Below, piece after piece: positions 32,790 through 36,806 of a stretch of 63,876 nt of DNA (the stretch's first letter is position 1; each line of letters opens with the position of its first letter). This stretch comes from Chloroflexota bacterium (GTDB lineage Bacteria > Chloroflexota > Dehalococcoidia > Lucifugimonadales > Lucifugimonadaceae), in NCBI GenBank assembly GCA_002714425.1, contig PAXI01000001.1, forward strand, positions 109,221 to 173,096, given 5' to 3'. The notes below the pieces were generated by a model. The model worked only from the letters and a program-made list of their open reading frames with translations. It was not told where the DNA came from and searched no databases. A program made the position numbers and the translations under genes.

Positions 32790-33950
32790 TTAATTTTTCT
32801 CTACATTCCCTGATTTAATACTATAAAGATTAGATACTTTCTTAATTTTATCTGGAAGTAGCTCGGCCTCTGTAACTGTTAATATTACCTGCTGATAATT
32901 CTTAAACATATCTAATATGAGCATACGTCGGTTTGGATCAAGTTCTGATAATATATCATCTAAAATAATAACGGGAACTCTCCCTGTAGTATTTTCTACA
33001 AAAATAGCCTCTGATAACTTCAATGCAAATGCTATAGTTCTCGCTTGTCCTCTAGAAGCGTGTTTTCCTGCTATTCGATTGTTAAATAAAATGTCTATAT
33101 CGTCTCTATGTGGTCCATATATTGAAACACCTTGTCTTATTTCATTATCACTGTATTTAAGTAATGTATCTAAAAATTTTGATTCAATTTCCTGGTTTGA
33201 TAACGAATTAATTTCGATTTTTGGAGTTTCATTTGATGATAAAATTTTTGTTTTGTATTCTAACTCTATCTCCTCTCCTCCGCTTAGATCCATGTGATGG
33301 TCTATAGAATTTGAACTAAGTGAAGATATCGATTTCCTTCTAATATCTATTATTTTTGATCCCTCGTATGCTAACCGTTCATTCCAGAATATTAGTTCTT
33401 TTTTTTCTGACTTTTTTTCTCTAATCCTTCTTAGCAATTTGTTTTTTTGAGCTATAACTCTTTTGTATCTTTGAATATCCTTTAGATATGAAGGAATTGA
33501 TTGACCAATTAAAATGTCTAGATATCTTCTTCTTTTTCCTGGTCCCCCATAAATAATTTCAATGTCTTCAGCCTCAAAAAAAACGCTATTAATATTACCT
33601 ACAAAATCAAATGAATTACACTTAATCCCATTAATTCTGAGACTTTTTCTGAATGACAAATCTTTATTTGACGCATCTATGTCTATTTGAGCTTGTGTTG
33701 TAATATCCTCACTTCTCGAAATTCCTAAGATTTGCATATGACCATTTTCTTCAAGAGTATTCCAATTAATTAACTCTTTATCGCTTGAAGACTTGTGGGA
33801 TTTGGCAATCGAAAGCATATAAATGGCTTCAAGTAAACTACTTTTTCCATGGCCATTATTTCCATAAAATACATTTAGCCCTTCCGAAAGGTTGAGTTCT
33901 GTACTTTTATGGTTTCTAAATCCAGATATTTGTAATTTAGAGAGGTAAAT
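32790..33950 (-). CDS. recF: DNA replication and repair protein RecF, non-canonical start
   Basis: RecF is an SMC-like ATPase that loads RecA at gaps with RecO and RecR. The full reading frame gives 386 residues: YLSKLQISGFRNH at the N-terminus, Walker A GNNGHGKSS at 31-39, the FFEAEDIEIIYGGPGKRRR block, LSGGEE and Walker B with VIILDDILSELD. No ATG, GTG or TTG exists in frame between the upstream TAA (33957-33959) and Walker A; the first ATG, at 33818, would delete Walker A. Initiation at ATT (33950), 9 bases after AGGA, or at ATC (33956) is needed for a working protein. sir2 follows in the same operon. Confidence 0.9.
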   Translation of the reverse strand: MYLSKLQISGFRNHKSTELNLSEGLNVFYGNNGHGKSSLLEAIYMLSIAKSHKSSSDKELINWNTLEENGHMQILGISRSEDITTQAQIDIDASNKDLSFRKSLRINGIKCNSFDFVGNINSVFFEAEDIEIIYGGPGKRRRYLDILIGQSIPSYLKDIQRYKRVIAQKNKLLRRIREKKSEKKELIFWNERLAYEGSKIIDIRRKSISSLSSNSIDHHMDLSGGEEIELEYKTKILSSNETPKIEINSLSNQEIESKFLDTLLKYSDNEIRQGVSIYGPHRDDIDILFNNRIAGKHASRGQARTIAFALKLSEAIFVENTTGRVPVIILDDILSELDPNRRMLILDMFKNYQQVILTVTEAELLPDKIKKVSNLYSIKSGNVEKN

Positions 33951-33959
33951 TTCGATTTA

Positions 33960-33963
33960 TCCT
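33960..33963 (-). promoter_or_regulatory. ribosome binding site that supports an ATT start of recF
   Basis: On the minus strand AGGA is followed by 9 bases and then the ATT codon at 33950. The ATC codon at 33956 would be only 3 bases away, too close for normal initiation. This favours ATT. Confidence 0.5.
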
Positions 33964-34047: not shown

Positions 34048-34569
34048 ATGAATATAAAATCATATATTGCCGATATAATTGGTTTTCCTTCAGATGGAAT
34101 TATCTTTAGAGATATAAGTCCGCTAATAGGAAATTATGAGGCATTAAACTATGTTTTAGATAGTTTTGAAAAATATGCATTAAGTTTAGATTTTGATTGC
34201 ATTGCTGCTATTGACGCTAGAGGTTTTATTTTCGGATCTCCTTTAGCAAATAGACTAAAAGTCCCTTTTGTGCCAATTAGAAAATCTGGAAAATTACCTC
34301 CTCCTGTGAAAAGTATTAAATACGATTTAGAATACGGCAATTCAAGGTTGGAGTGTAAAGATGATGTATTTAATAGTACAAAAAAAGTAATCCTTGTAGA
34401 TGATTTGTTAGCAACAGGAGGTACTGTAAATGCAGCTATAGAACTTGTTTCAAATTCTGGTGCTATAGTAGTATCAGTTTTACTTGTGGCTGAGTTATTG
34501 TATCTTAATGGTAGAAATAATTTACCTAATAATATTGATATTAATTGTTTGGTATCTTATGAAAAATAA
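34048..34569 (+). CDS. apt: adenine phosphoribosyltransferase
   Basis: Apt salvages adenine to AMP with PRPP. The 173-residue protein has the adenine-binding FPSDGIIFRDISPL at the N-terminus, AIDARGFIFGSPLA, VPIRKSGKLPP and the PRPP motif VILVDDLLATGGT near residue 112-124. Length is normal. It overlaps the HAD gene downstream by 11 bp. No unusual features. Confidence 0.96.
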   Translation: MNIKSYIADIIGFPSDGIIFRDISPLIGNYEALNYVLDSFEKYALSLDFDCIAAIDARGFIFGSPLANRLKVPFVPIRKSGKLPPPVKSIKYDLEYGNSRLECKDDVFNSTKKVILVDDLLATGGTVNAAIELVSNSGAIVVSVLLVAELLYLNGRNNLPNNIDINCLVSYEK

Positions 34570-36044: not shown

Positions 36045-36806
36045 ATGGACAAAGATACTCAAGGTAAGACTAATCAAATTGAAAAAATTTTATCTTTGGT
36101 TGAATTAGTAGAGTACTTAAGAAGCCCTCATGGATGTAAATGGGACATGGAGCAAACTCATCAATCGCTTAGAAATAATTTAATAGAAGAAACATACGAA
36201 CTTCTAGATGCTATAGAAGAAAACAGCAGTGAAAAAATAAAAGAATAATTGGGAGATATTCTGATGCAGGTTTTATATCACTCTGATATTGCTAGTGATA
36301 ATTCTAAATTTGATTTTTTTGAACTATGTGAATATGTAAGATTCAAATTAATTAATAGACACCCGCATGTTTTTAAGAGTAAAAAAAATAAAATGACTTC
36401 TTCTGATGTTGTAGATAATTGGGAAGAGATAAAAAAAGACGAAAAATTAAAAAACAATAAAGATTATTCATTGGTATCAGACATACCAGATACATTGCCT
36501 TCACTTTCTTATGCAACATCCGTTATAAAAAAATCAAAAAAAGCTAAAATTCCTGTAAAATATGAAGAATTAGATTTTAATATTGATGCAAAAATCTTTG
36601 ATTCAGAAGAAAGATTAGGAAAAATTCTTTTTTCTTTAGTAAACTTATTTGCCTCAAAAAATATTAATCCAGAATTAGTACTAAGAAATTATACAAAGAA
36701 GATAAAAAAGAAAATATTAATAATGGAAAAATTATCTAAAGATAAATCTATATCTGAGTTAAGTCAAATTCAGAAAGAAAAAATGTGGAGTAGTATAAAT
36801 TGTTAA
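36045..36806 (+). pseudogene. mazG: MazG-family nucleotide pyrophosphohydrolase interrupted by TAA
   Basis: MazG hydrolyses (d)NTPs to monophosphates. Two adjacent in-frame pieces (67 and 185 residues) together cover one MazG-like protein of 253 codons: LRSPHGCKWDMEQTH, EETYELLDAIEEN, then LGDILMQVLYHSDIA, NRHPHVFKS and WEEIKKDEK. They are separated only by TAA at 36246-36248. The stop replaces exactly the Glu codon of the metal-binding ExxD motif (E-LGD), one G-to-T change from GAA. Either this is a broken or readthrough gene, or the base is a sequencing error. A restart at TTG 36249 or ATG 36264 (after GGGAGAT) would leave out EExxE. All the other sequence looks conserved. Confidence 0.78.

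Follow-up and report, generated by a model that had tools for sequence, protein, structure and literature searches.

To our knowledge, few bacterial genes start outside ATG, GTG and TTG. Among the described cases, the non-canonical GTC start of Streptomyces sigR was proven to be repressed by initiation factor IF3 (PMC5472188), and in Staphylococcus aureus, reporters with the AUU start of cvfC1 or the AUA start of ccpN yielded less than those with AUG (PMC13009471).

An earlier note on a stretch of 63,876 nt of Chloroflexota DNA, called the window below, proposed that its recF gene could be intact only if it started at ATT or ATC. Having compared this locus with relatives, we consider it highly likely that recF is intact and is translated from ATT with fMet at a low, probably IF3-sensitive output. 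The gene was identified as recF by a match to TIGR00611 (E=1.3e-85, 287.5 bits against a cut-off of 172), in which residues 5-361 of the protein corresponded to positions 1-338 of the 339 in the profile. The parts of the locus are listed here in coordinates of the window, where ATH denotes ATC, ATT or ATA.

32790..33950, minus strand: recF coding sequence read from ATT, 386 codons plus stop, residue 1 presumably fMet (TIGR00611 match and alignment with a solved RecF)
33948..33950, minus strand: putative non-canonical start codon ATT of recF, opposite ATG or TTG in 37 Firmicutes recF and opposite ATH, ATG, GTG or TTG class-wide
33960..33963, minus strand: Shine-Dalgarno (SD) core AGGA, 9 nt 5ʹ of the ATT, common to all four genus members
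33957..33959, minus strand: in-frame TAA, which closes the recF frame two codons 5ʹ of the ATT
33840..33863, minus strand: Walker A motif GNNGHGKS of recF, from direct reading and the alignment of relatives
33816..33818, minus strand: first canonical in-frame start of recF, ATG, 3ʹ of Walker A; its product would be an ATPase without a P-loop
32008..32787, minus strand: cobB-like sirtuin deacylase gene, 2 nt 3ʹ of recF
34048..34569, plus strand: apt (adenine phosphoribosyltransferase), divergent from recF

On the minus strand, the 5ʹ end reads AGGA, TAA, then ATC GAA ATT TAC CTC TCT AAA TTA CAA ATA TCT GGA TTT AGA AAC CAT. Direct reading confirmed that no ATG, GTG or TTG lies between the TAA (33959-33957) and Walker A, as the earlier note had claimed, and that all three remain absent in this frame until 33818. 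The claims that the first ATG (33816-33818) lies 3ʹ of Walker A (33863-33840) and that 9 bases separate AGGA from ATT were correct as well. Walker A falls inside the recF product only when translation starts 5ʹ of 33863. The SD of this recF is modest (AGGA, spacing 9). Since apt is divergent, there is no same-strand gene upstream of recF for translational coupling. On its 3ʹ side, recF is probably cotranscribed with the cobB-like sirtuin gene. This sirtuin neighbour is retained in many relatives of the order, and recF is distant from dnaN.

The position of the start was determined by homology. When the protein was aligned with the solved RecF 5z67, the ATT (33950-33948) was residue 1 and stood opposite its Met. 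The recF initiator lies 10 codons before the F of FRN (the -10 codon), and FRN lies 19 residues before Walker A. All 37 Firmicutes recF with the motif start at exactly this codon (ATG in 36, TTG in 1). Both comparisons agreed with the earlier claim that the homologous N-terminus begins at the ATT. The spacing of 19 between FRN and Walker A was found in nearly every recF of the Chloroflexota class, with ATG, GTG, TTG or ATH as the start codon. The exceptions in register were family f41, with a TTG one codon further upstream, and family f91, which was mis-registered by the motif and showed ATT there by eye.

The relatives carried ATH at the same codon. The recF start was ATA, ATT and ATT in three genus mates, and in the GTDB family of the host ATH was present in 69 of the 70 recF examined, the remaining gene (L070) having ATG TAT at that codon. 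The nearest named records were those of uncultured Dehalococcoidia/Chloroflexi genomes (PBVQ01, PASL01 and PAOV01). Within the class, ATH recF were found in 23 families, namely 19 in the same order plus f52, f55, f59 and f82, and f91 was an additional case by eye. The other families of the order have ATG, GTG or TTG at the recF start, and f52, f55, f59 and f82 sit among mostly canonical starts elsewhere in the class. In the wider phylum, L365 was off register with an ATG nearby; a further 26 recF loci could be read, including two from the class, and all of these had ATG, GTG or TTG at the codon. These comparisons indicate that the feature is wider than this genome, being conserved over an order and turning up repeatedly within the class.

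This distribution also bears on a simple artefact, a sequencing or assembly error at a codon that is truly ATG, for which the earlier note had proposed a check on relatives. A single base turns ATT into ATG and metagenome-assembled genomes contain errors, but the independent assemblies of the genus and the 23 families carry ATH. Such an error is thus refuted, and we give it practically no weight.

The choice of codon was restricted. All 101 recF without a canonical codon at the start position carried an Ile codon there (ATC in 50, ATT in 32, ATA in 19); GTH, CTN and TTH never occurred at this codon in those 101 genes, and the hydrophobic positions -8, -5 and -3 used 9-12 codons. An upstream in-frame canonical start was absent in 68 of the 101, a canonical start was wholly absent before Walker A in 26, and a stop lay 0-1 codon before the ATH in 8. 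The frame of 33 contained a canonical codon somewhere upstream or was not closed in the fetched DNA, and for these 33 an N-terminal extension is formally still allowed.

Ribosome binding was analyzed by scoring an SD as a match of at least 4 bases to AAGGAGGTGA located 3-11 nt before the ATH. An SD was present in 80 of 96 ATH recF (83%), most often at 7 nt, compared with 8-15% in displaced windows and a mean of 20/96 after shuffling. When counted by family, 21 of 22 ATH families passed, while 4 passed in the displaced control. The proportion meeting the same criterion among canonical-start recF was 56%. The stronger SDs at the ATH starts match those of the conserved AUU/AUA starts of S. aureus (PMC13009471).

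In codons 2-50 of recF, most of which lie 5ʹ of the first ATG, synonymous differences exceeded non-synonymous ones in every genus pair (e.g. 12 vs 5), indicating translation of the stretch that precedes this ATG. The first canonical start at 33818 would suit a recF that is a pseudogene, or one translated only from that ATG into a RecF lacking the P-loop. The genus and the family, however, conserve the protein sequence encoded 5ʹ of 33818, with both FRNH and Walker A, and nearly every family has a strong SD ahead of the ATH, so that we regard a pseudogene or truncated product as very improbable.

Somewhat less improbable, but still unlikely, is a start at another non-canonical codon or upstream via a frameshift, with the conserved Ile as an ordinary internal residue. 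ATC at 33956, which the earlier note had kept beside ATT, is common to the four genus members, and prfB in this genome illustrates that frameshift starts do occur. ATC 33956 is nevertheless a poor candidate because it sits only 3 nt from AGGA; of the two proposed codons, ATT was upheld by the homology register. No frameshift from an upstream start, which the note had named as a possible refutation, was found, and several relatives have an in-frame stop directly or almost directly before the -10 codon (e.g. TAA-ATT in L033, TAA-ATC in L044). SD spacing across families peaks at 7 nt to the -10 codon, relatives have ATG, GTG or TTG at the identical codon, and no conserved upstream ORF was seen, the upstream flanks of recF being unlike across genera.

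Several other candidate features of the 5ʹ end gave negative results. The recF leader had no Rfam match and its folding was no better than that of shuffles (z 0.27), operon context had no clear link with the ATH start in the relatives, and no anomalous tRNA was found among 30 tRNA loci scanned, where Met-CAU occurred in three distinct genes, along with Ile-GAT.

We also asked how unusual the open 5ʹ end is by surveying 396 ORFs in the window and 20 stretches of 20 kb from the same genome (~400 kb; ~464 kb together). Among the 57 ORFs of the window recF was the extreme, with 46 codons before a canonical start and the runner-up having 22. In the survey, 6 of 396 ORFs (window plus ~400 kb) stayed open for at least 40 codons ahead of their first canonical start, several of them for trivial reasons. 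A missing canonical start is by itself only mildly unusual and compatible with chance. The strong argument for the ATT start is the comparative one, as it is the homology of this N-terminus that goes beyond chance. For the other long open 5ʹ ends in the window, homology started 3ʹ of the first canonical start where family models could test it. In the survey of the genome, the long open 5ʹ ends other than that of recF were prfB, stretches containing N, genes with homology after the ATG, one MFS gene, and ORFs without a family match. recF was the only clear ATH start with a supporting SD among the 57 window ORFs and the ~396 surveyed.

Three of the other genes in this genome deserve a description. 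The frame of prfB (release factor 2; L382:18-1055) lacks an upstream canonical start, presumably owing to its well-known programmed frameshift. In an MFS transporter gene of the lactate/oxalate-formate type (L376:17168-18436), homology begins ~38 codons 5ʹ of any canonical start, and the beginning of the frame has ATA/ATT codons without a clear SD; this is possibly another non-canonical start or a 5ʹ truncation. A mazG-like gene (36045-36806, plus strand) has an in-frame TAA at 36246-36248 just 5ʹ of a LGDILMQVLYHSDI motif. Since this frame is intact in the genus mates L099 and L100, the TAA either arose recently as a nonsense change or reflects an error in the sequence.

The history of the start was examined by building a tree from 111 RecF proteins with the start residue omitted. 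Most ATH recF fell into groups of their own family and own order, and those of f52, f55, f59 and f82 were placed among canonical recF; close sisters in f59 start with TTG and ATA. The distribution of ATH and canonical starts required at least 8 switches (shuffled mean 37), 3 of which were forced by starred branches, and the exact number is uncertain because the tree was made quickly, left many forks unresolved and contained some long branches.

These results can be set against the idea that the ATH start is real but neutral, start codons drifting without regulatory meaning. The canonical recF starts of the class are also mostly weak (ATG 20, GTG 17, TTG 15) and the ATH recF belong mostly to one large clade, as drift would have it. 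Drift does not sit easily, however, with the repeated switches on the tree, with SDs stronger at ATH than at canonical recF starts, or with the rest of the genome, where no general shift of start codons to ATH was seen (57 window ORFs, ~396 surveyed). We consider neutrality rather doubtful, though far more plausible than the errors and alternative starts above.

Other genes of the same genomes gave a positive control. In the host family infC, which encodes IF3 and was present in 29 of 31 genomes, had ATC or ATA at its fixed initiator codon in 26 of 28 cases, indicating that AUH initiation is in use there. recO, recR and dnaN start at ATG, leaving recF as the only one of recF, recO, recR and dnaN with ATH.

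We therefore return to translation of an intact recF from its ATT, for which the following mechanism is proposed. The AGGA would position the ribosome at the AUU, and the ordinary initiator tRNA (CAU) would read this codon with a third-base mismatch, so that RecF would begin with fMet; both fMet at the N-terminus and initiation at ATT itself are thus presumed. From the precedents in E. coli, Streptomyces and S. aureus, AUH initiation is expected to be inefficient and of the kind rejected by IF3, and would act as a throttle that keeps RecF low, partly offset by a strong SD. By analogy, recF may be under IF3 control.

E. coli RecF is present at ~50 molecules per cell, and ~14-fold more caused a 1-log loss of survival that depended on its ATPase (PMC10287930). 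The excess acts through destabilisation of the replisome, and RecO is harmless (PMC10287930). A throttled start of recF makes sense because E. coli RecF is scarce and toxic in excess, and the toxicity of RecF but not RecO is a likely selective reason for such a start. The throttle would not be essential in the class, since canonical-start relatives also do well. We think that, in a large group of Chloroflexota, most of them uncultured, the ATH start probably keeps the amount of RecF low.

More tentatively, recF and infC might form one IF3-sensitive set, in which RecF output would increase as IF3 activity drops. A drop of IF3 in slow growth, shortage or ribosome imbalance would then raise RecF and adjust gap repair or fork handling, and selection for limiting the toxicity of RecF would have led to the repeated gain of the start. 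This extension is possible but not favoured; if true, it would couple the stringency of translation initiation to the action of RecF at replisomes.

The finding has a practical side as well, because gene-prediction programs that accept only canonical starts would place the start of recF wrongly in these genomes, so that the predicted protein would either lack the P-loop or gain a spurious N-terminus. No paper on a non-canonical recF start was found in the openly licensed literature, a search whose coverage makes this weak evidence of absence. The mechanism is already known, and judging by the literature searched, recF is a new entry in a short list that holds infC, pcnB, sigR, cvfC1 and ccpN.

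Among these systems, infC of E. coli, Streptomyces and S. aureus resembles recF in its AUH start and good SD, and its start is conserved over phyla. The earlier note's comparison with infC held as to likeness, with infC itself at ATC/ATA in this family, but not as to autoregulation: infC is regulated by its own product, whereas recF would, at the most, be one of the genes on which IF3 acts. In E. coli pcnB, as proposed here for recF, an AUU start limits the expression of a low-abundance enzyme (Binns and Masters 2002, as cited in PMC13009471). Streptomyces sigR shares with recF a conserved non-canonical start and a strong ribosome binding site and, as expected for recF, has a dose-sensitive protein that is kept low and is misannotated in genomes, but its start is GTC/GTT instead of ATH, is confined to one genus and was shown experimentally (PMC5472188). 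The AUU of S. aureus cvfC1 and the AUA of ccpN are likewise conserved starts with an extended SD (PMC13009471), in unrelated genes and in the narrower group of the Staphylococci. The breadth and recurrence of the ATH start of recF are unusual beside these cases, and a start kept over ~20 families and repeatedly gained, in a gene whose product is toxic in excess, offers a natural experiment for asking what keeps such starts in place.
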